From the NCBI GenBank assembly GCA_013151575.1, contig JAADHZ010000098.1:1-34401 (forward strand): 34,401 nt of DNA, read 5' to 3'. A program made the position numbers and the translations under genes. How positions within the stretch are numbered: the first letter of the stretch is position 1; the number at the start of each line of letters is the position of its first letter. Source of the stretch: Gammaproteobacteria bacterium (GTDB lineage: Bacteria; Pseudomonadota; Gammaproteobacteria; SZUA-152). Under the pieces are notes generated by a model. The model saw only the letters and a list, made by a program, of their open reading frames with translations. It made no database searches and was not told the DNA's origin. Of the stretch, positions 31 to 32,530 are shown in pieces.

Positions 31-679
31 CTACCACCAAACCTTCGTGGCCGCTGCCTTCGCTTGACACACAGGTATGGGCAAAGGATTAACATTGAGA
101 TAGCGTTTGAGTCGTTCCCAGGTAAAACTTCGCCGTCCACTGCGTCGATTTAGCCACTTATGCAGCAGCTCCATCGTGTGTTGCAATACAGCGTACAGCC
201 CAGCCAAATTACCCACTACTCCGAAGTAGTTGTAACTTCCTCGTCAAAGATTTCAGCAGCTCAGAGGTCTTCATATGCCGCTTCTCCCTGATATAGTCTG
301 ACAGGTTACGTTTCGCTGTTTGCAGTCTTTTTCTGCCCTTTCGGCGAAACAGATGCAGCTTTCCTTTGCTGCCTGAATCCCAATAGAATTCAAAGTTCAG
401 AAAACAGAATCGATTCTTCAGCCCAGGTTGGAATCGACTAAAGCGCAGGATACGTGTTTTATCCTCTGCCACCTCCAAATTGAATTTCTCCAATCTGCTG
501 GGAAGCACTTTGTAAAATCGCTCTGCATCTCTGGCGTACTGAAATGCGCAAACAAAATCATCGGCAAATCTGCAGATGATCGCATCACCTTCACCGTGGG
601 GTTTAACCACTTTCTCGAACCATTCATCAATAACAGTGTGCAGGTAGATATTCGCAAGTATCGGGGGAGACGCTACCAT
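31..679 (-). pseudogene. Group II intron reverse transcriptase/maturase remnant (5'-truncated and frameshifted)
   Basis: ORF 209-679(-) has RT motifs VASPPILANIYLH and FADD (ICRFADDFVCAF). ORF 31-216(-) carries the typical group II RT C-terminus (VVGNLAGLYAVLQHTMELLHKWLNRRSGRRSFTWERLKRYL) in another frame, so a frameshift lies near 215-230. No RT N-terminal domain lies upstream. Confidence 0.85.
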
Positions 680-2943: not shown

Positions 2944-4473
2944 TTATCCTTTAATGATTTGTTGGCAGGCGGATGCTTCCGCCTCGGCTAGCGCGCCGCG
3001 CGCACGTTCCAGCACCTCGGCCGCATTATTATCGCGGTGGCCATGAATCAGCGTATAACCACAGCAGAAGCCACAGATGTGTTCGTCCTCAATGGCTGGG
3101 TGTTGTTTCTGTTGGTGGAGAAACAGCGCGTGCAGACGTTCCAGACGGGAAGTGGCGCTGTCGGCTTTCATGCCGAACATGAGCAGTACAAATTGGCCAT
3201 CTTCCAGCTGCGCCACATAATCAACTTTGCGGGCATTATCGCGAAGAGTGCGGCCAAGCACCTTGATGGCCTGCTCCCGCTGTTCTGGGGTGAGCGGGTC
3301 CAACCCTGACAGGTGCAACGCGGCGGTGCAAACGTCGGCCCCGCGCCGGGCAAAATCGTAGGCGCGGGTGAAATCGATATCGAACTGACGTTGATTAGGC
3401 AGGCCTGTGAGGGAATCGGTGAGCTGGTGGCGTTCGAGCAGTTGCCGTTTTTTGTCGAGCTTCCGGTGAATGAGGCCGATAGTGGGCAGGATCTCTGCGG
3501 TTTCACGTAGCAGAGGGGTGGGTAGACCGTTATCGGGCAGTGTGTCTTCCGTCAGGCGGTTGAGCAGGCCTTTGACGTTCTCAAAATCCGTGCTCAGTCG
3601 CCGCATGGCGAAACGGAGCAGAAAAATGACCACGCCCACAGCGAGCAGTAGTGCAGAAATATTGAAGGTCACCAAGCTGAAAAAACTGGGCAGAGAGGCC
3701 GGGGCTTTTTCAGTTAAGCTCAATTGCCAGTTGGTACCATCGATGGCCAGTGTGCTGGAGTGGGTGTTGTGCTCACCGTCAAGGTTGATCTGCCGGGCGA
3801 TGATCTCGCCGTGGCCGTCGCGCAAGGTCAGGTTTTGGTTGGCGTTAGCGCTGTTTTTCACCAGTTCGCGTAGGGTGTCAAGTCGAAAGCTGACGATCAA
3901 CGTGCCGATGGGGTTTTCCGCCTCGTCCAACACCGGGGCGGTCAGGTCGTAGTGCTCGTTGCGCGGGTCCTGGCGATGCACAGGCGGCACTGGGACGCCC
4001 CCTCCCTGGCTGATTCGGACCAGATCGGAAAAACATTGCGGACCAAGCTGGTGACCCGCGGGTTCGCCCAGCACCTGTCCATTTTCGGCAAGCAGGGCGA
4101 CGCCGATGGCTTGCGGCAAAAAGCGACGCATTTGTAACGCCCATGCCTGCGCGCCGGAGGTGTCGTTGTACTCCAGAATATCCTGGGTGGTGGGTTGTAC
4201 AGCAACATTGCCGACAATCTGGCGCAGCAGCAGCAGTTGCCCATGAATACTTTCAGCCTTGTCCGACAAATGTTGCGCAACAGCTTCGGAGGGCTGGAAA
4301 TGGTTGCGGGCCAGCAATAGGTTAGCCGCAATGATGGCGAGAAACAGGGCGACAATGACCGCCACACCGACATAAGCCATCAGTTTGACGGACAGGCCTC
4401 TCCGCTGTGTTGAGGTGGGAGGCTGTTCTGCGGAATATACAATGGGGCCGTTATGTTCACTTGCTTGATGCAT
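2944..4473 (-). CDS. Membrane sensor protein with periplasmic domain and degenerate GGDEF domain
   Basis: 509 aa; N-terminal TM, periplasmic segment, second TM ([23 protein letters not shown]), then [18 protein letters not shown] (GGDEF-domain start) but EDGQF in place of GGDEF. Confidence 0.8.
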
Positions 4474-4667: not shown

Positions 4668-5198
4668 ATGAAACAGGTTTGGACAAGGCTGCTGTTGGGC
4701 GGGTTATGTATCGCAGCTACAGCGGCGGCGGCATCGACGCTCGAAGCCACCTTTCAACAGCTGGATGCAGAGGCGGAAAAAGCCCTCGGCGAAGTGCTAG
4801 TGCTGGGGGCCGAAATGGCCTTGCTGGAGGAATCCCGAACGATTCCACTCAATAACCGGTTAGAAGTGCTGGTATCGATTGAGCCCAGCCCTTTTTTTCG
4901 GTTGGAAGCGGTGCAGCTTCAAGTGGACGGCAAAACCGTCAGTTCTTACACCTACACGCTTAATGAACTAACGGCGCTAAGCAGCGGTGGTGCTCATTCA
5001 CTGTTTCGAGGCGAGCTACCGGCTGGTCGGCATCAACTGGTCGCCGTCCTGTTAGGACGTTTCCCCGAGGATGCCGAATTCAAACGCGAGGTGGCATTCA
5101 TACTAGTCTCAGGAAGCGGGCCTCGCGTGATGGAGCTACGGGTGGAATCCGGGGATGAAAAAACCCCTCCCGGGTTTTTCGTGAAAGAATGGAAGTAA
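4668..5198 (+). CDS. Exported hypothetical protein, first gene of the TPR/ExbBD/TonB-like block
   Basis: Starting at the internal ATG gives a signal peptide (MKQVWTRLLLGGLCIAATAAAAS). Overlaps the next CDS by 10 bp. ORF track start is 4614. Confidence 0.75.
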   Translation: MKQVWTRLLLGGLCIAATAAAASTLEATFQQLDAEAEKALGEVLVLGAEMALLEESRTIPLNNRLEVLVSIEPSPFFRLEAVQLQVDGKTVSSYTYTLNELTALSSGGAHSLFRGELPAGRHQLVAVLLGRFPEDAEFKREVAFILVSGSGPRVMELRVESGDEKTPPGFFVKEWK

Positions 5199-6703
5199 TC
5201 TTGATTGTCCTGAAGTTCAGCAAATCATTGTGCGCGATGCTGATAGTCCCAGCCCTGTGTTTCGGCACGGGTGTGTCTGCTGCCGCAGCGCTGAAAACCA
5301 CCCCGGTGTCTCAAGAGGCTGTTGCCTGGGAAGGAATAAAATCCCCCCTCCTTCGAGCTGCGCAGTTCGAGCTGTTGATGAGGCGCCCCGTTGCTGCGAT
5401 CACCCGTCTGCTGGCCGATCAATCACAGGGATACTTTGCCCGGCATCCGGCTCAGGCCCGGCTAGTGTTGGGGGGTATCTATCTGGCTTACGGCGCCCAC
5501 TACAAGGCCGAGAGTATTTTTCAGGGCTTGACGATAGCGGAGCAGCCCCAGGGCCTTCGCGACATGGCGCGGTATCAACTCGCCCGGTTGCAATTTCAGC
5601 GCGGCCAGCCGGACGAGGCTCTTGACTCCCTGGGGCGCATCGACGGTGAGTTGCCAGCGAAAATGCAACAGGAACGCATGCTGTTGTCCTCACTACTATT
5701 TTTGCAGGACGATCAATTCGACGAAGCTGAGGATAATCTGCGCAGCATGGAGCACCAGGCGCAGAGGGACGACTCGGACGCCACATCGACCTGGGCCGCT
5801 TACGGCCGCTTCAATCTTGGTGTGACCCTGTTCCGACAAGGGCGGGAGCAGGAGGGCCGCAAACTGTTGGAGGCCGTAGGTAAAATGCCCGCAGACAACA
5901 GCGAAATTCGGGCCTTGCGGGACAAGGCGAATCTGACGCTGGCGTTCAGTTATCTCGGTCTGAATGAGCCGGATGCGGCACAGAAATATTTTGCCAAAAC
6001 CCGGCTGGAGGGGCCGTTGTCCAACAAGGCGCTGCTGGGGCTAGGACGGGCGTATGCCGCCCGAGGCGAGTACAAAAAGGCCTTGACGCCATGGATGCAG
6101 CTCACCAAACGTGACGCCAGCGACCCTTCGGTGCAGGACGGGTTGCTGGCAGTGCCTTTTGCTTTTGGCAAATTGGAGGCATTGAAACAGTCACTGGGGT
6201 ACTACCAGTCTGCGCTGAATGTTTATCAGCAGGAAATGAAACAAGTTCACACCGCAGAGGCCGCAGTCAACAACAGAGCGTTGCTGGACAGCTTAGTGCG
6301 AGGGGTCAGCAGTGAGGCGCTGAAGCAGCGCTGGTTTCTCGCAGATTTATCGGATGTGCCAGGGGCCCGGTATTTGTGGCCATTGTTTTCCACCCACGAA
6401 TTTCAGGAAACATTAAAAAACTACACCCGGATATACCGCTCTCGGGACACGCTGACGCACTGGTCTGCACGGCTTGGCAGCGGTGATATCGACCCGCAAC
6501 TGCGTCGTAGCTTGCAAGACCGCATCGATGCGTTGGAGAAAAAACTGAGCACAACGCAACAGCGCCTCGGCACTCACCTCACGCAATTGGCGCTAATGGA
6601 ACTGAACCGGCGCAAACAGCGTCTGGTGAGTTATGCCGCTGAAGTACGATTTTCCATGGCTCAAATTTATGATTACGCCGCCAAGCGCTGGGGAGGAGAG
6701 TAA
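5189..6703 (+). CDS. Exported TPR-repeat protein
   Basis: 504 aa; signal peptide LCAMLIVPALCFGTGVSAAAA, helical TPR-like repeats (LLGLGRAYAARGEYKKALTPWMQL). TAATG overlap with next gene. Confidence 0.8.
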   Translation: MEVILIVLKFSKSLCAMLIVPALCFGTGVSAAAALKTTPVSQEAVAWEGIKSPLLRAAQFELLMRRPVAAITRLLADQSQGYFARHPAQARLVLGGIYLAYGAHYKAESIFQGLTIAEQPQGLRDMARYQLARLQFQRGQPDEALDSLGRIDGELPAKMQQERMLLSSLLFLQDDQFDEAEDNLRSMEHQAQRDDSDATSTWAAYGRFNLGVTLFRQGREQEGRKLLEAVGKMPADNSEIRALRDKANLTLAFSYLGLNEPDAAQKYFAKTRLEGPLSNKALLGLGRAYAARGEYKKALTPWMQLTKRDASDPSVQDGLLAVPFAFGKLEALKQSLGYYQSALNVYQQEMKQVHTAEAAVNNRALLDSLVRGVSSEALKQRWFLADLSDVPGARYLWPLFSTHEFQETLKNYTRIYRSRDTLTHWSARLGSGDIDPQLRRSLQDRIDALEKKLSTTQQRLGTHLTQLALMELNRRKQRLVSYAAEVRFSMAQIYDYAAKRWGGE

Positions 6704-9591
6704 TGAACCCCAGGATGTGCGCAATAACGGCTGACGTTTTTTCGTTTGGGGAGCGATTTCAAACAAATGCCTTCCGATATTGGCTAACCGCCCTGATTGT
6801 GCTGTCAGTGGTCGGTTGTGCAACAGAGCAAAAAACCCTAGGTGACCTCAGTGAGGTAGAGATCAACATCGAAACTGACGCCCCTATTCTTGGCGCTCGC
6901 GACAAGGCCATGGACAACTATTGGGAATTCATGGCGGGCTCCCAAGGGCAGTCGCAAACAGTGGAGGCCCTGCGCCGCTTGGCGGATTTGGAGCTGGAAC
7001 GTAGCGAAGAACGTTTTCAAAAGCAGATGGAGGTGTTTGGCCAGGGGCAAGGCGAAGTGAATACCGATGTGGACACACTGAGGAGTATCACCTATCGCAG
7101 CGCAATTAAACTGTACGAAGATGCGCTCAAGGCCGCCGTCGGAGGCCCCCTGGAGGCGGCGATTCTGTACCAGGTGTCCAAGGCCTACGAACAGGCTGCA
7201 CAACAGGAAAAGGCCATACTGACGCTGGAAAAATTATTGGCCCTGGAACCGCTGGCCGCGAATCGGGATGAGTTGCAGTTTCGTCGTGGTGAGTTGTTGT
7301 TTGATCTGCGTCGTTTCACCAAAGCAGAGCAGGCCTACCGACAAGCTATGTTGGCCAATCCGAATTCCGCCTATTTCGAGAAGGCCCTGACGAAACATGG
7401 CTGGGCCTATTTTAAGCAGGAAAAATTCGGGCTGGCATTAGAATCATTTTTTCGTCTGGTGGACCGCAAGTTACAGCCGGTGCCGGGCAAACCAAAAAAA
7501 GTCCTAAGCCGTGGCGACAGTGAACTGCTCAATGACGTGTTTCGTGTGGCCATGCTGGGGTTTGACGAATTGGGGGGCGCCAGCGCCATCAAGGACTATT
7601 TTTCCCGGGTGGGGCGGCGCGACTACGAGACACGAGTCTACCGGCAACTGGGGGAATACTATATTGAAAAGGGACGAATTCGTGACGCCGCCGATACCTT
7701 TGCCGCTTTTGCGAGAAATTTCCCCATGCACGAGCAGGCGTTTGAATTTGATCTCAAGGCGATCGACACGTTCACCGCAGCTGGTTTTTCCAGTGTGCTG
7801 ATGAAACTAAAACGTGATTTCGTGAAACGTTATCGCGTCAAAGGGCCGTATTGGACGCACTATCAGGAACAGGAAGACACGGTGCTCGCCCGGTTAAAAA
7901 AAGCCTTGCAACACAATTCCGAAGACGTTGTGCGTGCCGCTCATGCCCGGGCGCAAAAAACCAAATCCGCACAGGACTATCAGAAAACTTTCTTTTTGTA
8001 TCGTCGGCACCTGAGATGGTTTGGGCAAAGTGACACTGCGCAAAAACTGAATTTCCTGTTTGCCGAATTACTGTTCGAGGCTGGCCAGTTTGAGTCAGCG
8101 GCCAAGGAATACGAAAAAACGGCCTATCGATATGTGCGTTTCGGCAAAAATGTGGAAGCTGGCTACGCCGCCCTACTAGCCTATGCCGAACAGGAAAAAC
8201 GTGCCGAAGGAAAACAAAAAACAATCTGGAGCCGCCTAGCCGTCGGCAGTGCTATGCGTTTCGGGAAAACGTTTCCCAACGACAAACGCGCGGCCAACGT
8301 CTTGACTAAAGCCGCTCAGGACATGTTTGCATTAAAAAAATATTCGCAGGCTGCCGTTGCCGCGCGCCAGATTCTGGAATTGTCGGTGGACCCCAGTGCC
8401 GATACTCGGCGCATAGCCTGGAAAATTATCGCCCGCGCAGAATTCGAAAGAGGCGACTACACACGCGCGGAGGTCGCCTACAAAGTCGCCCTGAGTTTGC
8501 TAGGTCCGAATGACAGCAGCCGCAAGAGTCTGGAGGAAGGTCTTGCCGCGGCGGTATACAAGCAGGGTGAATACATGCGGTCCAAGGGCAACATCAAAGC
8601 AGCCATAATGCAATTCGCTCGCGTTGCGCAGGTGTCACCGGATAGCAGCGTGATCATATCGGCAGAGTTTGATATCGCCGCAAGCATGCTGGAAGCCAAA
8701 AATTGGAACGGGGCGATTCAGGAATTTTTGATTTTTCGACAGACCAACCCCAACCATCCCCTGACGGCAAGAATTCCCGGCCTTCTCATCAAGGCCTATC
8801 TTGCCAGCAGCCAGTGGGTGAAGGCTGCCGAAGAATTGCGGGTGATGGAGCAGGTATTGCGCGAGCCCGAGCAAAAACGGGCGGCTATCTGGCAAGCGGC
8901 AGAGCTTTATGAAAAAGTCGACGATACGCCGAAACTTATCGAACTCTACCAGCGTTACGTTCGTCAGTTTCCCGCGCCATTGGAGCAGGCAATGGAAGCA
9001 CGCCAGAAGTTGGTGGTATTGTATGCAGCTGCTGGCCGGAAGCAGGATCGCGAGCATTGGTTAAAAGAAATTGTACACCACAGTAAGGGGAATGCAGGAC
9101 AAAGCACGCCTCGCATCCGTTACCTGGCCGCGAAGGCCGCCTATGAATTAGCCAAGCCGGAGTTGGCATTGTTTCAAGCCATCAAACTGGTGAAGCCATT
9201 GCGGCAAAATTTGAAGCGTAAAAAACAAAAAATGAAAGCCGCGGTCGATGCCTATATGGTGGCCGCCAACTTCGGCATTGCGGACGTCGCTACCGCATCC
9301 GTTTACTGGGTGGCAGAAATATACAATGAGTTCGGTCAGGCATTAATGTCCTCAGAACGTCCCCCGGGGCTGTCAGAAGAAGAGCTTGAACAATACGATA
9401 TTTTACTCGAAGAACAAGCCTACCCCTTTGAAGAAAAGTCTATTAACATTCACGAAACCAATGTTGAGCGTATCGTTGAAGGAACCTATGATAAATGGAT
9501 TAAAAAGAGCCTGGGCAAACTCATGGAGCTGAGCCCGGTGCGCTATGCCAAAACTGAAAAGGGTGAATTGTTTGCGCAACAAATTTACTAA
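6703..9591 (+). CDS. Large TPR-repeat lipoprotein
   Basis: 962 aa; lipobox LSVVGC; many TPR-like units (AILYQVSKAYEQAAQQEKAILTLEKLLALEP, YFEKALTKHGWAYFKQEKFGLALESFFRLV). Confidence 0.82.
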   Translation: MNPRMCAITADVFSFGERFQTNAFRYWLTALIVLSVVGCATEQKTLGDLSEVEINIETDAPILGARDKAMDNYWEFMAGSQGQSQTVEALRRLADLELERSEERFQKQMEVFGQGQGEVNTDVDTLRSITYRSAIKLYEDALKAAVGGPLEAAILYQVSKAYEQAAQQEKAILTLEKLLALEPLAANRDELQFRRGELLFDLRRFTKAEQAYRQAMLANPNSAYFEKALTKHGWAYFKQEKFGLALESFFRLVDRKLQPVPGKPKKVLSRGDSELLNDVFRVAMLGFDELGGASAIKDYFSRVGRRDYETRVYRQLGEYYIEKGRIRDAADTFAAFARNFPMHEQAFEFDLKAIDTFTAAGFSSVLMKLKRDFVKRYRVKGPYWTHYQEQEDTVLARLKKALQHNSEDVVRAAHARAQKTKSAQDYQKTFFLYRRHLRWFGQSDTAQKLNFLFAELLFEAGQFESAAKEYEKTAYRYVRFGKNVEAGYAALLAYAEQEKRAEGKQKTIWSRLAVGSAMRFGKTFPNDKRAANVLTKAAQDMFALKKYSQAAVAARQILELSVDPSADTRRIAWKIIARAEFERGDYTRAEVAYKVALSLLGPNDSSRKSLEEGLAAAVYKQGEYMRSKGNIKAAIMQFARVAQVSPDSSVIISAEFDIAASMLEAKNWNGAIQEFLIFRQTNPNHPLTARIPGLLIKAYLASSQWVKAAEELRVMEQVLREPEQKRAAIWQAAELYEKVDDTPKLIELYQRYVRQFPAPLEQAMEARQKLVVLYAAAGRKQDREHWLKEIVHHSKGNAGQSTPRIRYLAAKAAYELAKPELALFQAIKLVKPLRQNLKRKKQKMKAAVDAYMVAANFGIADVATASVYWVAEIYNEFGQALMSSERPPGLSEEELEQYDILLEEQAYPFEEKSINIHETNVERIVEGTYDKWIKKSLGKLMELSPVRYAKTEKGELFAQQIY

Positions 9592-9601
9592 TACACTTGA
9601 T

Positions 9602-10285
9602 ATGCGGACCAACCTGCCACCATTTCAGGTTATGAAAATTTGCCGACGTTCTATAACGCGACAGTATGGGCGGCAAGCGGCAAGTGTCGTGCTGATCTGC
9701 TCGTTGATGGCATTACTGCTGGCGGGTTGTGCAACACAGGGGCCTTCCGTCGAACCGCAGGAAAAAACCCAAACCGCTGAACAGGCTCTGCCTAAAATAG
9801 ACCCCAAAGCATCGGCGCTTTTTGAAAAAGCGCTGACCGCGATGCGTAAAGATAAGGATGCTGTTGCGGAAAAACAATTATTACAGTTAACCAAACAGTT
9901 CCCGAATTTTTCCGGGCCGCAGGTCAACCTGGGTATTATTTATTACCGGGCGGGAAAGTATGATATTGCGCGCGAAGCCTTTAACAAGGCACTTGAACTC
10001 AATCCCAAGAGTGTCGCAAGCCTGAATCATCTCGGCATTATCAGTCGGAATGAGGGCAAGTTCAAAGAGTCCTCTGAGGACTATGAAAAAGCCTTGCGAA
10101 TCAACCCGGATTATGCTTACGCTCATCGCAACTTTGGTATTCTGCTGGAGCTGTACATGGGTAGGCTGCCGGAAGCGCTGGCGCACTACAAGCGCTATCA
10201 GACACTTGTCAAACAGCAAAATAACGCGGAAGACGGCGAGGTTAGAAAATGGATAGTGGAATTAGGCAGAAGAATAAAAAAATAG
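9602..10285 (+). CDS. TPR-repeat lipoprotein
   Basis: Lipobox LLAGC; TPRs (VNLGIIYYRAGKYDIAREAFNKALELNPKSVASLNHLGIISRNEGKFKESSEDYEKALRINPDYAYAHRNFGIL). ORF track start is 9545; the start may be 9602 or 9632. Confidence 0.85.
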   Translation: MRTNLPPFQVMKICRRSITRQYGRQAASVVLICSLMALLLAGCATQGPSVEPQEKTQTAEQALPKIDPKASALFEKALTAMRKDKDAVAEKQLLQLTKQFPNFSGPQVNLGIIYYRAGKYDIAREAFNKALELNPKSVASLNHLGIISRNEGKFKESSEDYEKALRINPDYAYAHRNFGILLELYMGRLPEALAHYKRYQTLVKQQNNAEDGEVRKWIVELGRRIKK

Positions 10286-10560
10286 CGGCTATTGCATTGT
10301 TGGTAGTATTGCTGGCTTCTGTGGCCGTTGCGGAAGACCGCTTGAACCTGGAAGGTGATTCCATCGTCGGGAGCCGGGAACTGCCCAAGGTGTTGTACAT
10401 TGTGCCGTGGAAAAGCGCTAGGCTGGGGGCTTTGGCAGGCGGCGCTGGCAGCAGTTCGCTGGACACAAGCTGGGAGGCGCTGGATCGAGATCTGTTTCGG
10501 CGGCAAGTCGGGTATTACGAAATGTTGTATAGCGCCAATGACAAAGAATCATTAAAATAG
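10249..10560 (+). CDS. Small exported protein
   Basis: 103 aa; signal peptide KIAAIALLVVLLASVAVAE, then DSIVGSRELPKVLYIVPWK. Overlaps the preceding TPR gene by 37 bp on the same strand. Confidence 0.72.
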   Translation: MDSGIRQKNKKIAAIALLVVLLASVAVAEDRLNLEGDSIVGSRELPKVLYIVPWKSARLGALAGGAGSSSLDTSWEALDRDLFRRQVGYYEMLYSANDKESLK

Positions 10561-10637
10561 GCATTACGTGTACACGAGTAAGGGGTACAAATCGGCCATT
10601 TGCTGACATCCGCCGGAATAGGGGGACATGCGGTATA

Positions 10638-10657
10638 CTTGCACTTTCGCGTGCAAG
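10638..10657. repeat. Hairpin CTTGCAC-tttcgc-GTGCAAG upstream of the TolQ-like gene
   Basis: Perfect 7-bp inverted repeat with 6-nt loop in a ~350-bp noncoding gap. Confidence 0.6.
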
Positions 10658-10914
10658 CTTTCGTTATCGCTTCCGATCACTACCCCAGCAATACTCGATT
10701 TAACGAGGTTTTATCCCGCAACACAGGCTTTCCGGCTCTGAATTTGTGAACCCCATCATTCATTTCAAATTGAATATTTGTCATCGTTGGCCGTTACTCA
10801 ATTGATGGCTGAGTTCATGGGCACGCATGTTGAATTAATGGTTTTGAATTGAACAAATATCGGCGTCGGGAGCTGGTTCACGATGCCGTCAATGTATGAG
10901 GTAAGGAGAATAAT

Positions 10915-11571
10915 ATGGATGTCTTTAACACAGGCGTAAAGTTTTTCCAGGAAGGTGGCTGGTTTATGTACCCCATCGTATTAGTGTTTGCGTTAGGCGC
11001 GGCCATTGCTTTGGAACGTTACATTTACCTGAGCGCCGCCAAGCGCAGCAATCGCACTATGTGGGAGAAACTCACGCCGCTGGTGAAAGCGAACAACTAT
11101 GACCAGGCGATGGCATTGAGCAGCCGCTCAAAAACCGAAGTGGGGAAAATTCTGTCCTATGGGTTGAGCCGGTTACGCGTCACCCATCGGCGCGATGACA
11201 TCGAAATCGCCATGGAAGAAGGTTTGATGGAAGTGATCCCCCGCCTGGAAAAACGCACCCATTATCTAGCCACCTATGCCAATATCGCCACGCTCTTGGG
11301 TCTGTTGGGCACCATCATCGGCCTGATTCAGGCGTTTACCGCTGTGGCAAACGCCAACCCTGCGGACAAGGCTGATCTCCTGTCAGCCAGTATTTCCGTT
11401 GCCATGAACACCACCGCGTTTGGTTTGATGGCTGCCATTCCCTTGTTGCTGCTATACACCGTGTTACAGACCAAAACCACCGAGTTGGTTGACAGCATGG
11501 AAATGGTCACGGTGAAATTCCTCAACGCCATCACGGAATTTCGTAACGAATCTGCCCGGTCATCGGATTAA
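10915..11571 (+). CDS. MotA/TolQ/ExbB family proton channel subunit
   Basis: 218 aa; GGWFMYPIVLVFALGAAIALERYIYL, TYANIATLLGLLGTIIGLIQAF, SISVAMNTTAFGLMAAIPLLLLY. Confidence 0.93.
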   Translation: MDVFNTGVKFFQEGGWFMYPIVLVFALGAAIALERYIYLSAAKRSNRTMWEKLTPLVKANNYDQAMALSSRSKTEVGKILSYGLSRLRVTHRRDDIEIAMEEGLMEVIPRLEKRTHYLATYANIATLLGLLGTIIGLIQAFTAVANANPADKADLLSASISVAMNTTAFGLMAAIPLLLLYTVLQTKTTELVDSMEMVTVKFLNAITEFRNESARSSD

Positions 11572-11586
11572 ACAGGACCTTCACAA

Positions 11587-12081
11587 ATGTCCGTCAGAAG
11601 TCGCGTCAGACGCTCGGCTACCGAAGCGCCAGAACTAAACATCACTGCCTTCATGAACCTCATGGTGGTATTGGTGCCCTTTTTGCTGCTGTCCGCAGTA
11701 TTTTCCAATTTGGCCATTCTCGAACTGAACCTTCCGCCGGACAGCTCCGCTCAGGCCAATAAAAACCAGAAAAAAGAACGCAATTTTGAAGTGATTGTGC
11801 GTAAAAACAAACTGGTTGTTGCGGACACACTCGGGGGCGTCATCAAAACAATTCCCAACGTCAAAGGAAAACATGATTTCAAAACGCTTTCCGATATTTT
11901 GATGAGACTCAAAGCGCGTTTTCCCAAAAAGCAAAACATTACACTGTTGTTGGAACCACAAATTCCTTACGATTTACTGGTCCAGTCAATGGATACTGCA
12001 CGCTCCGTTGAGGTCATCGAAATGGCGTCAGTGGTCAGGAAAGAACTGTTTCCTCAAATCGCCATCGGTGATGCGCCATGA
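11587..12081 (+). CDS. ExbD/TolR family protein (first paralogue; Asn in place of TM Asp)
   Basis: 164 aa; TM segment LNITAFMNLMVVLVPFLLLSAVF aligns with the ExbD/TolR pattern but has MNL where (I/M)D(V/I) is expected. Confidence 0.85.
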   Translation: MSVRSRVRRSATEAPELNITAFMNLMVVLVPFLLLSAVFSNLAILELNLPPDSSAQANKNQKKERNFEVIVRKNKLVVADTLGGVIKTIPNVKGKHDFKTLSDILMRLKARFPKKQNITLLLEPQIPYDLLVQSMDTARSVEVIEMASVVRKELFPQIAIGDAP

Positions 12082-12584
12082 ACAAGTCCCGCCGCGCCAA
12101 GCGGATGTCGCGCCATCACGCGCGCACCAAGCGTGGGGCTTCGCTCAACATGGTGTCGTTAATGGATATTTTTACCATTTTGGTATTTTTTCTGTTGGTG
12201 AGTTCATCGTCGGTAAAGGATTTGCCTAATGCAAAACAGATTCAATTGCCGGAGTCGATTTCTGATCAACTGCCCAAGGAAAATGTCGTCATCATGGTGA
12301 GCGAGACAGATATCGTGGTGCAGGGGCGAAAAGTCGCATCCGTGAAAGATGTGAATAAATCATCGGTGCTGGAAATCAAACCGCTGAGAAAAGAGCTGGA
12401 ACGCCTGGCCAATCGCAGCGTCGTCACGACGCTGCCGGATGGCAAGCCCGTCCCGCGCGAAGTCACCATCATGGGAGACAAAAAAATTCCATTTGAATTA
12501 CTCAAAAAAATCATGTTGACCTGCACCAAAGCCAACTACGGGAATATCTCTTTAGCCGTATTGCGCAAATCAGGCGAAGGGTAA
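12078..12584 (+). CDS. ExbD/TolR family protein (second paralogue; Asp retained)
   Basis: 168 aa; SLNMVSLMDIFTILVFFLLVSSSS. ATGA overlap with the first paralogue. Confidence 0.9.
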   Translation: MNKSRRAKRMSRHHARTKRGASLNMVSLMDIFTILVFFLLVSSSSVKDLPNAKQIQLPESISDQLPKENVVIMVSETDIVVQGRKVASVKDVNKSSVLEIKPLRKELERLANRSVVTTLPDGKPVPREVTIMGDKKIPFELLKKIMLTCTKANYGNISLAVLRKSGEG

Positions 12585-12590
12585 CAGGAC

Positions 12591-13559
12591 GTGGCCGCAG
12601 CAACTTATCGTCTTTTCGTTCTACCCTGGACTCGCATTGAGGCCGATGATGGCCTGCTGAAAAAGATCGTGATCGTCACTATGGCGCTGACGTTTTTTTT
12701 CAGTATTGCCATTCCATTCATCTCCCTTCCTGAGCCTGACCGCGATAAAATTGAAAAACTGCCGCCTAGGCTGGCACAGATGTTGTTGGAAAAGAAAAAG
12801 CCCAAACCGGTGCCAAAGAAAAAGGTAGAGAAAAAGAAAGAAGAAAAGAAAAAAGAGAAAAAGAAAGAAAAGAAAAAAGAAAAGCCGAAGGAAAAACCGA
12901 AGCTAAAAAAGGCCAAGCCAAAACCTAAGCCAAAACCAAAAGTTGATCGCGTCGCCGAAGCCCGGAAAAAAGCAGCCAGCGTTGGGTTGTTGGCGTTTTC
13001 CGATGAGCTGGCAGACCTGCGTGATACGCCGTTGACTAAGTCGCTGAATAAAAACAAGCGCTTGTCGAAGGGCGCCACCTCGGCCAAAACATTCAAACGC
13101 AACGTGCTGACCTCGGGCACCACGGGCAGCGGTGGCATTGACACGTCCCGCTTGAGCAGCGGCGTGGGCCGTAGCGCCCTGGCGGGCAGGCAAACGACCC
13201 AGGTGGAGAGCCCAGTAGACATGGTGGCCAAGGCTGCGCCATCGACCTCCGGCAGCGAAAGTTCCAAACCATCCCGCACCTACGAGGAGGTATCGCTGGT
13301 TTTCGACAGAAACAAAGGCGCTATTTATTCCCTGTATAGCCGAGCATTGCGCAAAGATCCGATGTTACAGGGCAAGGTGGTGCTTGAAATTACCATCGCG
13401 CCGTCCGGGAGGGTCACCTCCTGCAAAATTATTTCCAGTGAGTTGAATAACAAACGGCTGGAACGCAAGCTCGTGTCACGCATCAAATTGTTGAATTTTG
13501 GCGCACGGGATGTAGAACAAATGGTGGTAACTTACCCCATCGACTTCCTGCCATCGTAG
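12591..13559 (+). CDS. TonB-like / AgmX-PglI C-terminal domain energy transducer
   Basis: 322 aa, GTG start; N-terminal TM, K/E/P-rich linker (KKKPKPVPKKKVEKKKEEKKKEKKKEKKKEKPKEKPK), C-terminal GKVVLEITIAPSGRVTSCKIISSELNNKRLERKLVSRIKLLNFG. Confidence 0.88.
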   Translation: MAAATYRLFVLPWTRIEADDGLLKKIVIVTMALTFFFSIAIPFISLPEPDRDKIEKLPPRLAQMLLEKKKPKPVPKKKVEKKKEEKKKEKKKEKKKEKPKEKPKLKKAKPKPKPKPKVDRVAEARKKAASVGLLAFSDELADLRDTPLTKSLNKNKRLSKGATSAKTFKRNVLTSGTTGSGGIDTSRLSSGVGRSALAGRQTTQVESPVDMVAKAAPSTSGSESSKPSRTYEEVSLVFDRNKGAIYSLYSRALRKDPMLQGKVVLEITIAPSGRVTSCKIISSELNNKRLERKLVSRIKLLNFGARDVEQMVVTYPIDFLPS

Positions 13560-13571
13560 GGGCTTCCGCGT

Positions 13572-14402
13572 TTAAACCGACAAGTCCAGTGGCTTACGAG
13601 TTTGTTCATTACCAGGCAGGACCGCATTTTCGGCCTGCCGATAGACTTCAATGCCCGGTTCAATTGCGCGTGCGGAAGGCCTGTTAGCACCTGGGCTGTC
13701 GTTATTTTCTTCCCTGCTGTTTTTTGCCTCACTGAGCAGGTCCACCTGGGCCTGCACCGCCATTTGTCCGGCCTCGGCCGCAATAGTGCGATCCTGCTCT
13801 GAGGGTTGTGCCGGTGCCAGGGCGGCAACGCGAACCGTGTCTGCTTTTTGCAGGGTCGCCTGCGGATCGCCCTCCACAGCTGAGACATCAATGCTGACTT
13901 CACCGCCCACCGCGTAACGGCGGCCATCTGCCCCCTGCTGATAGCTAAAACTGGCGGAGCCTTGGGCCAGAGCTCCCGCAGCGGCTTTGTGCGCGGCTTC
14001 GTGAGCCTTAACTTCCCGATCGCGGGTTTTGAGTTCATCCAGCTGACGTTGGTCAACCTCGGGCAGGTTATTGCCTCGGGCACCACGGTTTTTTTTCTCG
14101 GCACCGGTCGCCGTTGCACCATCAGCAGCGGCTTTTTCTTCGGGTGCGGTGGTGCTGGTTTCGGTGATGCTGGTTTTTTCACCGGGTTGGACCGGGATAC
14201 TGCGCCGGGCCTCGGCCGAGCCCGCCTTCGATTCCGTGTTCTCTCTCAGCGGGCTGCCCGCCCTGTTGGGCTCGGCGGTGTCTGCAATGGCGACAACCGG
14301 CCCTGCTGAACGGGTTTGCGTCCCCACTTGCGAGTCGAATGGTTGGCGCGGCAGCGTAGATTGAAAAGCGTTAGTTGGGGAAAGTCCGATGGTGTTTATC
14401 AT
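13572..14402 (-). CDS. Putative metalloprotease-like protein (SprA-related / CJM1_0395-like family)
   Basis: 276 aa; LDELKTRDREVKAHEAAHKAAAGALAQGSASFSYQQGADGRRYAVGGEVSIDVSAVEGDPQATLQKADTVRVAALAPAQPSEQDRTIAAEA with HExxH-like HEAAH. Confidence 0.8.
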   Translation of the reverse strand: MINTIGLSPTNAFQSTLPRQPFDSQVGTQTRSAGPVVAIADTAEPNRAGSPLRENTESKAGSAEARRSIPVQPGEKTSITETSTTAPEEKAAADGATATGAEKKNRGARGNNLPEVDQRQLDELKTRDREVKAHEAAHKAAAGALAQGSASFSYQQGADGRRYAVGGEVSIDVSAVEGDPQATLQKADTVRVAALAPAQPSEQDRTIAAEAGQMAVQAQVDLLSEAKNSREENNDSPGANRPSARAIEPGIEVYRQAENAVLPGNEQTRKPLDLSV

Positions 14403-14804: not shown

Positions 14805-15596
14805 TTACGTCACTAAACACAACGTAATCAACGCCACCGTTTCGCTGAGTTCGGTCACCGCGCCGGCAGTATCACCCGTGCAGCCACCGATGCGTTTGAG
14901 CATCAACATGCGCAGCAGCCAAACGCCGACGCTCACCGCCATCAGCGCGGCCAGGCCAGAAATTCCGAGCACAATGACGCTGAGCAGGGCCAACACCAAC
15001 AGAACAATTGCCGCCGGACGACGCGGCAGGTGGTCCCGCAACGTTTGGGCCAGCCCGCCACTGCGAGCGCTGGGGGTGGTGAGCAACAGCGCCAGCGCCG
15101 CGCCGCGACCGATGGTGGGCACCATTATCAGCACAAATACGGTGCTGGCGTCCGGCATACCGCTCAGCAGAAATTCCAGAGCAGCGAATTTTGTGATCAA
15201 TATCAGCGCCACCACGATGACCGCTGCGCTGCCGGTGTGCGGGTCCCGCATAATGGTGAGGCAGCGTTCCCGGTCGGCGCCGCTGAGCCAGCCGTCTGCG
15301 CTGTCTGCCAGGCCGTCAAGGTGAAGCCCTCCGGTCAATCCCACCCACAGAGTGAGCAGAATCGCCGCAAAGACACCAGAGGTTTCGTGCACCGGTGCGG
15401 TTGTCACCCACAGCAACAGCCCGAGGCCCAGCGTCAGCAGCCCACCGATGACCGCGCCCACCAACGGATAATGCAGCCCCGAGCGGCCGATGAGCACATC
15501 ATCGATCCGCTGTGGCCCTGGCAGAGGCAGGCGGGTGAGAAATTGCAGGGCGGTGAGAAAGACCTGCATCAGTCCGCTACCCGGTGAAACCGCCAC
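14805..15596 (-). CDS. cobS: Adenosylcobinamide-GDP ribazoletransferase
   Basis: 263 aa; FLTALQFLTRLPLP, GGLHLDGLADSADGWLSG, RCLTIMRDPHTGSAAVI. Confidence 0.95.
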   Translation of the reverse strand: MAVSPGSGLMQVFLTALQFLTRLPLPGPQRIDDVLIGRSGLHYPLVGAVIGGLLTLGLGLLLWVTTAPVHETSGVFAAILLTLWVGLTGGLHLDGLADSADGWLSGADRERCLTIMRDPHTGSAAVIVVALILITKFAALEFLLSGMPDASTVFVLIMVPTIGRGAALALLLTTPSARSGGLAQTLRDHLPRRPAAIVLLVLALLSVIVLGISGLAALMAVSVGVWLLRMLMLKRIGGCTGDTAGAVTELSETVALITLCLVT

Positions 15597-16213
15597 GTGG
15601 TTCGGTTGCCCCGCGCGGTGTGGTCAACGCAGAGACGCGATAAACAGGCGTAGGGAATGTTGATGCCGAACATCGCCTGCTGCGGTACGTTTAACACGTC
15701 GTTGAGCAACACCCGCATGACGCCGCCGTGAGTCACCAGCAGAACATGTTTTCCGGCATGGCGGTGTAACAATCGGCCCCAGGCGTCGGCAACGCGGCGT
15801 TGAAATCGCGCCAGGGGTTCCCCGCCGGGCGGCGTCACCGCTTGCGGATTTTCCCAGTAGCGCGGCAACGTGTCCGGGTCCTTCCGCAGGATTTGTGCGC
15901 TGGTTTTTCCCTCCCACTGGCCGAAGTGGATTTCCCTGAGCTGCGGTTCGCGCTCCAGCGTGATGGCGCGCCGCCGCGCCAATTGCTGGGCGAAATCATG
16001 ACAGCGTTGCAGCGGCGAGCTGATGATATGCGACCAGGCGGAGTCCTGCCCGTCCAGCTGTTCGACGGCGTTCGACATTTGTTGCCAACCCCGAGTGGTA
16101 AGCGGGTCATCGCGGTGGCCGCGATAACGCGGGCCGCCGACGGGCTCCCCGTGGCGCAGCAGGTCGATGATGGTGGTCAGGTTTTTATGGCTTGGCATGG
16201 TGCGGCAAATCAA
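15569..16213 (-). CDS. cobC: Histidine phosphatase, alpha-ribazole phosphatase type
   Basis: 214 aa; [12 protein letters not shown] (RHG), [26 protein letters not shown]; embedded in the cob cluster. Confidence 0.88.
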
Positions 16214-17277
16214 TCCGACTTTTCAGAAACACCGGCCTCGGCAAAAGTCGCCATCTCATTGTGCAGCGCACAGGCGAGTCGCAACAAGGGCAGCGCTGCC
16301 GCCGCGCCACTGCCTTCACCCAGGCGCAGCCCGAGATTAAGCAGCGGCCGGGCGTCCAGCGCCTCCAGCAACAGGCGGTGGCCGGGTTCGGCGGAATGGT
16401 GTCCGAACAGCAGCCACTGACGCACCGCCGGGTTGTGTCGCGAGGCCACCAGCGCCGCGCAACCGGCAATGAAACCGTCCACCAGCACCGGCAAACCGAC
16501 TTGCGCACAATGAATAAACGCGCCGGTGAGCGCGGCGATTTCAAAACCGCCGAGACGTCGCAGAGCTTCCAGCGGTGTGTCGGCGAACGGACCGTGTAAA
16601 GCCAACGCGGTGTCGATAACGCGCACTTTGCGTGCGACCCCTTCGTCATCCAGTCCCGTACCGGGGCCAGTGACGGCACGCGCCGGTTGCTCCAGCAGGG
16701 CACAAATCACCGCCGCAGCGGACGCGGTGTTACCGATGCCCATGTCGCCGCCGATGAACAGCTCGCCGTGCTGATGCTGCGCCCGTGACACCGCTTCGCG
16801 CCCGGCGTCGAGAGCGTCCGTTAATTGCTGTTGGGTGAGCGCGGGTTCGCGGGCGGCATTGGCGGTGCCGGCCCCCAATGGGCGATTCACCACGCCGGGC
16901 AGTTCGCCGGGGTCATTGATGCAGCCGAGGTTCACTACCTCAAGATGGGCGTTCAAATGCCGTGCCATCACGCTGATGGCGGCGCCGCCGGTGGCAAAAT
17001 TTTTCACCATTTCGCCAGTCACCGCCTGCGGAAAGGCGGAAGTACCTTCGGCGGCTATGCCGTGATCGGCAGCGAACACCACGATGTGCACGTTGTTGAC
17101 GGCAGGGTCGGCCGCTCCCTGCATGGCGGCCAGTTGCACGGCAATGGTTTCGAGCTGATCCAGCGCGCCCGGTGGTTTGGTCAGCCGTGATTGGCGAGCA
17201 AGGGCATCGCGGTGTGCTTGCGCATCAATGGGATGAACGGCAGCGTTAAGCCAGTCAAGCAGTGCGGAAACGGTCAC
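16210..17277 (-). CDS. cobT: Nicotinate-nucleotide--dimethylbenzimidazole phosphoribosyltransferase
   Basis: 355 aa; [77 protein letters not shown]. Confidence 0.96.
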
Positions 17278-17288
17278 GATTATTTTTC

Positions 17289-17840
17289 CTATATTTCAGG
17301 GGGTATTTTTAGAGGGACGGGTTGTTTCAGAGCCATGGGCAGCCCAGCCACCATCAGCGTCACGTGATCGCAAAGTGCGGCCAGCTGCTGATGCAGGCGA
17401 CCGGTCTCATCGACAAAGCGCCGGTTGAGTGGGCCAAGGGGTGTGACGCCGAGCCCCACTTCGTTGCTAACGAGAATAATGTGCCCCGGCAATCGGGGTA
17501 ATACGTCGAGTAGAGCATCCCTTTGAGACATGAAGAGTGCGTCATCAGAATCCTCCCCACCGATGAGGTTGCACAGCCACAGGGTGAGACAGTCCACCAG
17601 CATGCAGCGCTGTGCGGCGGCATGTTGCGACAGCACGTCGGCAAGCGCGACGGGTTCTTCCACGACGGCCCAATGCGTCGGTCGCTCGGCCTGGTGGTGT
17701 TGAATACGGGCGGCCATCTCCGCATCGTCCGCCGTCGCGGTGGCAATAAAGGTAACGTCTTTGCCGGACGCCAGCGCGTGTTGCTGGGCCAGCGCGCTTT
17801 TGCCGGAACGTGCTCCGCCGAGAATGAGTTCTTTGGTCAT
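17289..17840 (-). CDS. cobU: Adenosylcobinamide kinase / adenosylcobinamide-phosphate guanylyltransferase
   Basis: [20 protein letters not shown]-loop, [48 protein letters not shown] extends to 17861; MTKE is the more likely start. Confidence 0.95.
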
Positions 17841-17898
17841 CGGGTTATACTCGCGATTCAATTCTCGCCAGCCAATAAGACTAATTTGAGGTTTTTAC

Positions 17899-18813
17899 AT
17901 GACTGGATGTCGTTTCGCAGCAGTGCGGATTTTTTTATTTGTATCATGTTATTTTTTTCTCTCAACTAACAGTTATGCTGGACCGAGCGTAGAGGATGAT
18001 GCGGGCAACACCGTGACGTTGACGCAGCCCGCCCGGCGCATTATCAGCCTCGCCCCGCACGTGACAGAATTGTTGTTCGCCGCTGGTGCCGGTCAGCACA
18101 TTGTCGGTGCGGTATCTTACAGCGACTACCCCGACGCCGCGAAAAAATTGCCAAGGGTTGGTGCGTACAACGTCTTTGATCTGGAGGCCATCGTCGCTCT
18201 CAAGCCGGACTTGGTGGTTGCGTGGAAGAGCGCCAACCCGGCAGCCGCCCTGAAAAAATTACAGGCGCTCTCCATCCCAGTATTTTTGAGCGAGCCGCGC
18301 CTGCTGGAAGACGTGGCCAGCAGTCTTGAACGTTTTGGAAAACTTGCCGCCACCGAGGACATCGCTAATGCTGCCAGCGCGGTGTTTCGCCAACAGCTCG
18401 CCGGGCTGCGCGCAACATACAGCACAAAAAAACCGGTGTCCGTGTTTTATCAGGTCTGGCATCAGCCGTTGATGACCATTAACGGCGAACACATTATCAC
18501 TCAGGTGATTGAACTGTGCGGAGGCCGAAACATCTTTGCCAACCTGCCGACGCTGGCCCCAAAAATTAGCCCCGAAGCGGTATTGCAGAAAGACCCGGAG
18601 GTGATTGTGGCGGGAAATTCTGCACTCAATCATCCGGGCTGGAAAGATGACTGGAAGCGTTGGCCTGGTTTGCGTGCGGTGAAAAACGGACATCTGTTTT
18701 ACGTCAACCCAGACATTATTCAACGCCACACGCCGCGTATTTTGCAGGGGGCGGAGGTGCTGTGCAAGCAAATCGAAACGGTGCGCCGAAACAGTTTAGA
18801 CATTATGTATTGA
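17899..18813 (+). CDS. btuF: Cobalamin ABC transporter substrate-binding protein
   Basis: 304 aa; signal peptide, RRIISLAPHVTELLFAAGAGQHIVGAVSYSDYPDAAKKLPRVGAYNVFDLEAIVALKPDLVVAW; divergent from cobU. Confidence 0.88.
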   Translation: MTGCRFAAVRIFLFVSCYFFLSTNSYAGPSVEDDAGNTVTLTQPARRIISLAPHVTELLFAAGAGQHIVGAVSYSDYPDAAKKLPRVGAYNVFDLEAIVALKPDLVVAWKSANPAAALKKLQALSIPVFLSEPRLLEDVASSLERFGKLAATEDIANAASAVFRQQLAGLRATYSTKKPVSVFYQVWHQPLMTINGEHIITQVIELCGGRNIFANLPTLAPKISPEAVLQKDPEVIVAGNSALNHPGWKDDWKRWPGLRAVKNGHLFYVNPDIIQRHTPRILQGAEVLCKQIETVRRNSLDIMY

Positions 18814-27874: not shown

Positions 27875-28736
27875 ATGAAATTTATTATCGGAGTTATCAC
27901 GGTGGTGGGTTGTGTGGCGGGGGGATTTGTCCTGTCGCACGGTAATCTGATGGCGCTGTGGCAGCCTTTTGAATTGCTTGCTGATTATCGGCGGCGCAGC
28001 CTTCGGGGCATTCGTGATTTCCAATCCCGGCACGGTGATTAAGGGTGCATTGGGTTCCATCGGTAAACTCCTGTCTGGTTCAAAACATAATAAGCAGAGC
28101 TTCATGGAGTTGCTGTCACTGATGTACGACCTGTTTACCAAGGCGCGCAAGGAGGGCTTGATGGCGCTGGAGGCCGATATCGATGAGCCTGAAAACAGCC
28201 CCATTTTTCAGAAATATCCCAAAATCCTCAAAAATCACCACGCGCTGGAATTCATTGCCGATTACCTGCGCCTGATGGTGGGGGGCAATATGAACCCTTT
28301 TGAGATCGAAAATCTGATGGATGTAGAGCTGGAAACCCACCACCATGAAGCGGAAAAAATCCCGGGCGCGATCACGGCTGTGTCAGATGCACTGCCTGGT
28401 TTTGGCATTGTAGCCGCAGTGCTGGGCATCGTGATTACCATGGCCTCCATCGGCGGTCCTATTGAAGAATTGGGGCATCACGTGGCCTCAGCCCTGGTGG
28501 GCACCTTTCTGGGTATTCTGCTGGCCTACGGTTTTGTAGGGCCCATGGCCACCAGTTTGACGAATATGAACGAAGATGACAGCAAAGTGTTTGAATGCAT
28601 CAAGGTATGTTTGTTGGCCACGTTGAATGGTTATGCTCCGCAGATTGCCGTGGAATTTGGGCGTAAGACCTTGTATTCCCACAATCGTCCGGGTTTTCAG
28701 GAGCTGGAAGATTTTGTCAAAGGCAAGGCCGAATAA
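27875..28736 (+). pseudogene. motA: Flagellar stator protein MotA, frameshifted
   Basis: N-terminus MKFIIGVITVVGCVAGGFVLSHGNLMALWQPFELL in frame of ORF 27725-28042; the rest (LLIIGGAAFGAFVISNPGTVIKG... to stop 28736) is in another frame. TTGCTTGC at 27974-27981 explains the shift. Confidence 0.88.
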
Positions 28737-28784
28737 TCCCCGCGAGACAGGCGCCTTGACAGCGTATTAGCCTGGAAAAACCCC

Positions 28785-30050
28785 ATGGACAACCAGACGA
28801 TTGTCGTCAAAAAGATAAAGAAGGGTGGGCACGGCCATCATGGTGGCGCGTGGAAGGTGGCCTTTGCCGATTTTGCCGTGGCCATGATGGCGTTTTTTTT
28901 ACTGCTGTGGCTTATCGCTTCCACCACCAAGGAAGAAAAAGCGGGGTTGTCCGAGTATTTCAGCCCACCCACCCAGGGTTTTGCCGATGGCAGCGGCGTC
29001 AGCAAAGATATTATCGATATGGGAGGGGGACAGAAAATTTCCCAAGGTGATGATTCCAGCGAGAATGCCCGGGAGGCCCGCGCGCCTAACGAGGCGGAAA
29101 TTCAGCAAGCCGTCGAGATGGAAAAAGAACGGCTGGAATCGTTGATGGAAGACCTGAAAAAGGCCATTGAGGCCAGCCAGGCCCTCAAACCTTTCAAGGA
29201 CCAATTGTTGCTGGACATTACAGCGGAAGGTTTGCGCATCCAGATTGTCGATAAAGAAAACCGCCCCATGTTTGACAGTGGAAGCGCGGAGCTGAAGGAC
29301 TACACCAAGGTCATTCTGCACGAACTCGCCAAGAGCATTAACACGGTGCCCAACAAAGTCAGCCTCACCGGCCATACGGATGCGACGCGTTTTGTGGGGC
29401 GAAAAAATTACAGCAATTGGGAATTGTCGGCGGACCGTGCCAACACCTCCCGCCGCGAGCTGATTACCGGTGGGCTCAAGGATGGAAAAATAGTCAAGGT
29501 GATGGGGCTGGCATCCACGGTATTATTTAACAAAGCGGAACCGCGTAGCCCCATCAACCGACGCATCGCGATCATCGTGATGAACAAGGCTGCCGAGGAG
29601 GCCCTGCTGAGTCCGGTACAGCCAGTATCCGACGGTGAAGAGGCCAGGGTATTGATAGAGCAGGGTGTGGGTGGCGCAACGGTGCAGAAACCCGTTGAGA
29701 AAATCGCCCGCGAACAGGATGGAAAAAATGAAGGGCAACATGCGCACGATACTGAAGTCGCCGCTGATGCCAAGGCAAAACATCCGTTAGAACCGGTGCC
29801 GACGGAAACTCCCGCCGCAGAGCTGAAGGCGACTCAGGACATTCCACCACCCCCAGTGTCAGAAGGCCACCACGAAGCTGGGGGTGAGCCCGCAGGAAAA
29901 CATGCTCAAGGCAACAAAAAAACGGCCAAAAAACGCCCACCGACGGCAGAGCCTGGCGAGCCCGACTACACGGGCATGAGCATTGCGGAGCGTATCAAAG
30001 CGCGGCGAGAATGGAATCGCCAACGCAGCAAAGCGGCCAAAAACCGGTGA
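28785..30050 (+). CDS. motB: Flagellar motor protein MotB
   Basis: 421 aa; KKGGHGHHGGAWKVAFADFAVAMMAFFLLLWLI, OmpA-type KVSLTGHTDATRF; long charged C-terminal extension. Confidence 0.93.
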   Translation: MDNQTIVVKKIKKGGHGHHGGAWKVAFADFAVAMMAFFLLLWLIASTTKEEKAGLSEYFSPPTQGFADGSGVSKDIIDMGGGQKISQGDDSSENAREARAPNEAEIQQAVEMEKERLESLMEDLKKAIEASQALKPFKDQLLLDITAEGLRIQIVDKENRPMFDSGSAELKDYTKVILHELAKSINTVPNKVSLTGHTDATRFVGRKNYSNWELSADRANTSRRELITGGLKDGKIVKVMGLASTVLFNKAEPRSPINRRIAIIVMNKAAEEALLSPVQPVSDGEEARVLIEQGVGGATVQKPVEKIAREQDGKNEGQHAHDTEVAADAKAKHPLEPVPTETPAAELKATQDIPPPPVSEGHHEAGGEPAGKHAQGNKKTAKKRPPTAEPGEPDYTGMSIAERIKARREWNRQRSKAAKNR

Positions 30051-32516: not shown

Positions 32517-32530
32517 AATTTTCTTTGAAA

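Follow-up and report, generated by a model that had tools for sequence, protein, structure and literature searches.

A gammaproteobacterial Agl-Glt core cluster as a candidate proton-powered machine of the cell envelope

The gliding machinery of Myxococcus (Glt) and the spore-coat complex (Nfs) have one motor, AglRQS, in common (PMC3858216). Relatives of gltC, gltD, gltE, gltG, aglR, aglQ and aglS were located in a single gammaproteobacterial region by Luciano et al. in 2011, who gave their function as unknown (PMC3169522), and a follow-up in 2013 termed this gammaproteobacterial core a stand-alone basal transport machinery (PMC3858216). We describe here a cluster of this kind in positions 1 to 34,401 of contig JAADHZ010000098.1 from a gammaproteobacterium. 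This stretch of 34,401 nucleotides is referred to as the window, and the assembly that it comes from measures 2.48 Mb and is 86% complete. The class of the window's genome, taken to be Gammaproteobacteria also from the match of the cluster to the published core, is what is meant by class below. Nine genes, labelled A-B-C-D-E-Q-R1-R2-X in cluster order, lie on the forward strand at window positions 4668-13559. The identity of the cluster has been known since 2011 (PMC3169522) and is not new. A literature search of article texts that left aside most subscription journals and all figures and supplements, including Figure S1 of PMC3169522, which draws gammaproteobacterial clusters, found no functional work of later date on this core. 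A recurrent outer-membrane module, a single motor and an Asn in R1 make its function testable. From sequence comparison, we put the probability at about 0.6 that the gammaproteobacterial Agl-Glt/Nfs core acts as a proton-powered, TonB-like puller on outer-membrane partners and not as a gliding engine.

The core described as Group B in PMC3169522 is like the present cluster in holding the seven Agl/Glt relatives in one gammaproteobacterial region, and it is duplicated in some genomes; Marinobacter, Saccharophagus and Teredinibacter are among the carriers named by Luciano et al. The present cluster differs from that description in having two constant extra genes, A and E, instead of one, both with Myxococcota relatives, in an R1 without the proton-carrying Asp, and in the occurrence of GltA/GltB-family barrels with the core. 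The AglRQS-GltA-K system of Myxococcus has the same type of motor, tetratricopeptide repeat (TPR) lipoproteins and a TonB-like GltG, and its two TIGR04565 barrels adjoining gltC may have counterparts here. However, the gammaproteobacterial system lacks MglA (24 genomes) and its X protein is without the N-terminal half of GltG. The Nfs complex of M. xanthus is paralogous and borrows the shared Agl motor, much as a motor-less second cluster may do here, but it has different partners, and a polysaccharide cargo has been shown there and not here.

Identity, conservation and Myxococcota relatives of the cluster

An initial annotation, made from the letters of the window alone, listed nine same-strand genes with particular domains. 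All nine open reading frames (ORFs) are present and their Pfam and NCBIfam assignments agree with that list. TPRs are found in B, C and D (Pfam). B is an exported, GltC-like protein whose start is ambiguous (5189 or 5207 to 6703, +). C (6703-9591, +) is a GltD-like lipoprotein of 962 amino acids with the lipobox VVGC, in which Cys39 is invariant, and D (about 9632-10285, +) is a GltE-like lipoprotein with the lipobox LAGC. Q (10915-11571, +) is an AglR-like channel protein of the MotA/TolQ/ExbB type (MotA_ExbB, 103 bits). It is followed by two ExbD/TolR-type proteins, R1 at the AglQ position (11587-12081, +; ExbD, 43 bits) and R2 at the AglS position (12078-12584, +; ExbD, 63 bits). X (12591-13559, +) is TonB-like and related to GltG, and consists of a short N-terminus, a single transmembrane helix (residues 21-47), a Lys/Pro-rich linker and an AgmX/PglI C-terminal domain (70 bits, cut-off 40). 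The remaining two genes encode exported proteins that match no family in Pfam or NCBIfam: A (4668-5198, +) has 176 amino acids, and E (10249-10560, +), which overlaps the 3' end of D, has 103 amino acids and the motif ELPKVLYIVPWK.

Sequence comparisons place relatives of AglR, AglQ, AglS, GltC, GltD, GltE and GltG, that is, the Agl-Glt core complex, among the nine gene products. In Myxococcus, Corallococcus and Hyalangium, the C profile scored 188-294 bits on most proteins of the GltD type and 110-127 bits on one further paralogue type. In one Corallococcus locus (L213), a GltD-type protein adjoins genuine GltE and GltG, which reach 742 bits (cut-off 225) and 1083 bits (cut-off 650), respectively. 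The C profile matched this GltD-type protein with 206 bits, the D profile matched the GltE with 84 bits and the X profile matched the GltG with 55 bits. The B profile gave a weak match (28.7 bits, E 1e-7) to an Anaeromyxobacter GltC, which itself passes the cut-off of the GltC model with 730 bits. D stayed below the NCBIfam GltE equivalog cut-off (56 bits versus 225). In a tree of Q proteins, gammaproteobacterial Q and AglR-type proteins were split from TolQ/ExbB with branch support of 98/94, in the presence of several long branches; one row (ownTtp), a stray short ORF on a very long branch, was ignored. The profile matches and the placement of Q agree with the initial annotation, which had proposed an Agl-Glt-type core.

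A synteny survey of Gammaproteobacteria, as suggested in the initial annotation, revealed extensive conservation. C is present in all 24 genomes of the window's family. All nine genes occur in the same order in 12 of 15 same-family relatives; two of the others are truncated where their contigs stop, and in the last A was detected by tblastn only. Among 40 gammaproteobacterial loci from many families, 29 have all nine genes and 34 have at least eight, again in the same order. The TPR genes are conserved together with the ExbB/ExbD/TonB-type genes, and the conservation of gene order goes far beyond chance. In both the family and the class loci, all core genes are found in one genomic region outside Myxococcales, and a metagenome-assembled genome (MAG) from Nitrospirota carries all nine. 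In a class-wide sample of 370 genomes (completeness of at least 90%, the window's own genome being the exception), C was found in 89. A GltD relative in about a quarter of the gammaproteobacterial genomes sampled makes this a common envelope machine.

A and E are constant at their positions in the family and class loci. PMC3169522 mentions one extra core gene, without Myxococcales homologues. According to profile and positional evidence, neither A nor E is lineage-specific, as each has Myxococcota relatives. A comparison of gammaproteobacterial A with a Myxococcota A relative gave a probability of 95.5% in HHalign, and the 25 best matches in the reverse search were all gammaproteobacterial A. 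The Myxococcota relatives of A were missed in a genome-wide profile search and were found by a search of mglA-adjacent loci together with the reverse search; the gene lies directly downstream of mglA, ahead of B, C and D. The relatives of E are weak (15-19 bits) but stand at the corresponding cluster position, and some Myxococcota MAGs have mglA-A-B-C-D-E-Q-R1 in a single row. The query of the contig scan was MglA joined to the C-terminal part of C, and all 80 retained loci were MglA matches; the MglA query sequence was confirmed by a 100% match. The Agl-Glt core directly follows mglA in about two dozen Myxococcota loci (for example L084, L092 and L108), some of which have motor genes in the row. 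In the literature search, no published account was found of the relatives that A and E have in this phylum.

An AlphaFold2 model of A, made with the Myxococcota relatives, predicted a long N-terminal helix followed by an immunoglobulin-like beta-sandwich (predicted local distance difference test score, pLDDT, 84.7). This model matched no fold in the PDB at E <= 0.001, and PDB sequence searches with the A and E profiles returned coiled-coil or chance matches only. A single-sequence model of A reached a pLDDT of 42 and was discarded.

Among the Myxococcus clusters, the one linked to mglA gave the highest C-profile score, about 276 bits. From its gene content and from locus numbers we take this cluster to be G4 (MXAN_1922), an assignment that is probably correct. 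It shares the A-B-C-D-X order with the present cluster. Unlike the latter, the mglA-linked cluster of Myxococcaceae is without motor genes, and R1 and R2 of the Agl motor keep their Asp. MglA was absent (E <= 1e-8) from all 24 gammaproteobacterial genomes with the core that were tested, of which the window's own is 86% complete and the others 97-100%.

Motor subunits, the second cluster and the outer-membrane module

Asp28 of AglQ is essential. R1 has Asn24 at the expected position of the proton-carrying Asp, and R2 keeps its Asp as Asp30. Across 53 gammaproteobacterial clusters, this position is Asn in R1 of 52 and Asp in R2 of all 53. In myxobacteria, most proteins at the position of R1 have Asp, and two Myxococcota MAGs have Asn. 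The Nitrospirota R1 was counted as Asn in the alignment, apparently through an alignment slip; the sequence itself has Asp. In MotB, replacement of Asp by Asn mimics the protonated state (PMC9389320). Because R1 is without the proton-carrying Asp, the R1-R2 axle probably has a single working proton site, on R2. Alternatively, R2 could form the axle as a homodimer and R1 could have a different role. PMC9389320 states as unknown whether AglQ and AglS dimerise with each other or each with itself, and the R1 Asn bears on this question. The literature search found no published account of this Asn.

A second cluster, A2-B2-C2-E2, is located on another contig of the same genome (C72) and is without D, motor or X. 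The module ahead of it encodes a dihaem lipoprotein of about 940 amino acids, in which the haem motif CxxCH occurs twice, a protein with an SH3 barrel, the TIGR04565 barrel OMP2, and one protein each of the TlpA-like, DUF4266 and DUF3570 types. A motor-less cluster accompanied by the redox/barrel module was observed in seven of eight family loci (the window's own genome and six of seven others). The module is found immediately upstream of A in 11 of the 40 class loci, and nine of these 11 include the motor. This placement directly before the core is a physical link between the two. The initial annotation had described the core as free-standing. It does stand alone in the sense that no polarity regulator accompanies it, but probable outer-membrane partners are encoded on the other contig. 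Just downstream of E2, the motor-less cluster in this genus has a glycosyltransferase gene of the polyprenyl-phosphate type (L053:5520-6596, -; L056:6046-7083, -).

The module resembles a described ApbE/DUF3570/thioredoxin/DUF4266 cluster (PMC8238504) in its DUF3570, DUF4266 and TlpA-like proteins, and ApbE is present in some other genomes. It differs in its association with an Agl-Glt core, with barrels of the GltA/GltB family and with a dihaem lipoprotein. DUF3570 is a known substrate of ApbE flavinylation, and the main text of the paper mentions neither ExbB nor gliding (PMC8238504). No published account of the barrel/redox module with the core was found in the literature search.

GltA and GltB have been stated to be limited to Myxococcales and Bdellovibrionales (PMC3169522). 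With the TIGR04565 model (cut-off 60), Myxococcus GltA scored 168 bits, GltB 119 bits and gammaproteobacterial OMP2 160-162 bits. The Myxococcus genes and the OMP2 genes occupy a corresponding place ahead of gltC, although OMP2 is on a contig other than that of the core in the present organism. In 1.58 Mb of mostly Myxococcota sequence, 10 of 10 matches of the OMP2 profile were beside gltC-type genes. These scores and positions revise the published restriction at the level of the family, with orthology not proven.

In the genomes of the window's family, no contig that holds a motor-less cluster was found to carry Q. Two matches to C but a single Q occur in each of five relatives that are at least 96% complete (G005, G016, G018, G019 and G023); in G023 the second C match is a fragment next to what is probably a run of N. 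These near-complete genomes with two clusters and one motor suggest that the motor is probably shared. Q is likewise encoded elsewhere in the genomes with a motor-less cluster that were checked in other families. A single motor for both clusters is consistent with these observations and is not proven by them; no published account of such an arrangement was found in the literature search. Over the C-like match in G023 (L065, G023:C5) an open frame of 24,315 amino acids was reported, probably an assembly run of N.

Proposed role and rival explanations

From the protein families, Q would form a ring around an ExbD-type axle composed of R1 and R2, and proton flow would drive its rotation. X would be anchored near the motor, with its linker and C-terminal domain carrying force across the periplasm. 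A periplasmic and outer-membrane scaffold, built from A, B and E together with the two lipoproteins, C and D, would receive this force. With less certainty, the force may act on outer-membrane barrels, foremost the GltA/GltB-family barrels encoded on contig C72 and the DUF3570 barrel. A single motor could serve both assemblies, in the manner of the AglRQS motor that Glt and Nfs share in Myxococcus. For cargo, we infer that the machine moves or assembles an outer-membrane or surface complex. A more detailed version of this proposal, tentative and rather unlikely as a whole, is that one Agl-type motor whose axle has a single proton site (R1 Asn, R2 Asp) drives two paralogous assemblies, one of which powers a flavin/haem redox module through the GltA/GltB-family barrels. 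If true, the outer membrane would hold an energised system, for redox or secretion, that has not been described previously.

Several observations weigh against the proposed puller and its link to the redox module. The relationships of B to GltC and of E to Myxococcota proteins depend on weak profile scores, and X is far shorter than GltG and below the GltG equivalog cut-off (61 bits versus 650). The composition of the axle as an R1-R2 heterodimer is assumed. No more than the 11 loci mentioned have the module linked to the core, and in this organism it is on a separate contig; it may therefore serve another purpose. The flavinylation motif [ST]GA[ST] is present in only six of 18 DUF3570 members of the module, including that of this organism. 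In addition, the second cluster might be unpowered, since D and X are missing from it along with the motor.

The main rival to a puller acting on outer-membrane partners is an Nfs-like role in surface biogenesis, in which the machine would transport or assemble polysaccharide or lipoprotein and the redox module would be merely a frequent neighbour. The Agl motor of Myxococcus moves spore-coat polymer together with the Nfs complex (PMC3858216), the core without the module is the commoner arrangement (29 of the 40 class loci), and the glycosyltransferase gene next to E2 would fit such a role. However, genes for making or exporting polysaccharide are not recurrent neighbours of the core in the 40 class loci, and the motor-less sister cluster is found with the redox/barrel module in nearly all of the family loci described above. 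This role is possible but doubtful. An engine for Myxococcus-type gliding is suggested by the homologues of seven gliding proteins and by the nearest Myxococcota clusters, which adjoin mglA. It appears very unlikely, given that MglA is missing from every genome tested and that the GltE and GltG equivalog cut-offs are not reached. Moreover, disruption of MXAN_1922 (G4) left motility intact and core genes were insufficient for motility (Luciano et al., PMC3169522).

A variant of Tol-Pal or of TonB-ExbBD nutrient uptake would share superfamilies with Q, R1, R2 and X, and in principle it would be coupled to proteins of the outer membrane in a similar way. However, Q scores far below the equivalog cut-offs of TolQ (68 bits versus 221) and ExbB (45 bits versus 206), and the tree parts it from the TolQ and ExbB of its own genome. 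The same genome encodes separate TolQRA (contig C7), ExbBD, TtpC-ExbBD-TonB and MotAB, and no TonB-dependent receptor was recognised by eye beside the cluster among the window ORFs listed. Such a variant is hardly likely at all, and the distinction from Tol-Pal and siderophore ExbBD-TonB drawn in the initial annotation is upheld.

Layout of the locus and neighbouring genes

The genes of the cluster had been described as tightly packed. This is not so along the whole cluster: a non-coding gap of 354 bp (10561-10914) parts A-E from Q-X. Such a gap is usual in the family, with a median of about 254 bp, and is shorter elsewhere in the class, at about 80 bp. It contains a terminator-like hairpin (10638-10657), although such hairpins are no commoner in the region than in shuffles of it. 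It is possible that A-E and Q-X are two transcription units. Short sequence blocks in the gap are common to family members (TGTGAATT..GTCAAT and TTGYGGCAT), and a search of the gap against Rfam gave no match. A promoter or operator in the gap is possible, perhaps driving the motor unit.

Upstream of A, a divergent gene with dCache and GGDEF domains (2944-4473, -; Pfam) is found beside A in 12 of 15 family relatives. This conserved neighbour suggests that the cluster is under cyclic di-GMP control. Downstream, an SprA-related gene (13572-14402, -; PF12118, 112 bits) is convergent with X and is a frequent neighbour in the family.

Elsewhere in the window, a MotA-type gene followed by a long-tailed MotB/OmpA-type gene (27969-30050, +) forms a second MotAB pair besides that of contig C133. 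Cobalamin genes (cobS, cobT, a cobU-like gene and a phosphatase) and a BtuF-like protein were recognised by eye at 14805-18813, as was an apparent fragment of a group II intron reverse transcriptase at 209-679 (-). A Sel1-like and ankyrin-repeat protein, also identified by eye, is encoded at 32408-34399 (+) and runs off the contig end.

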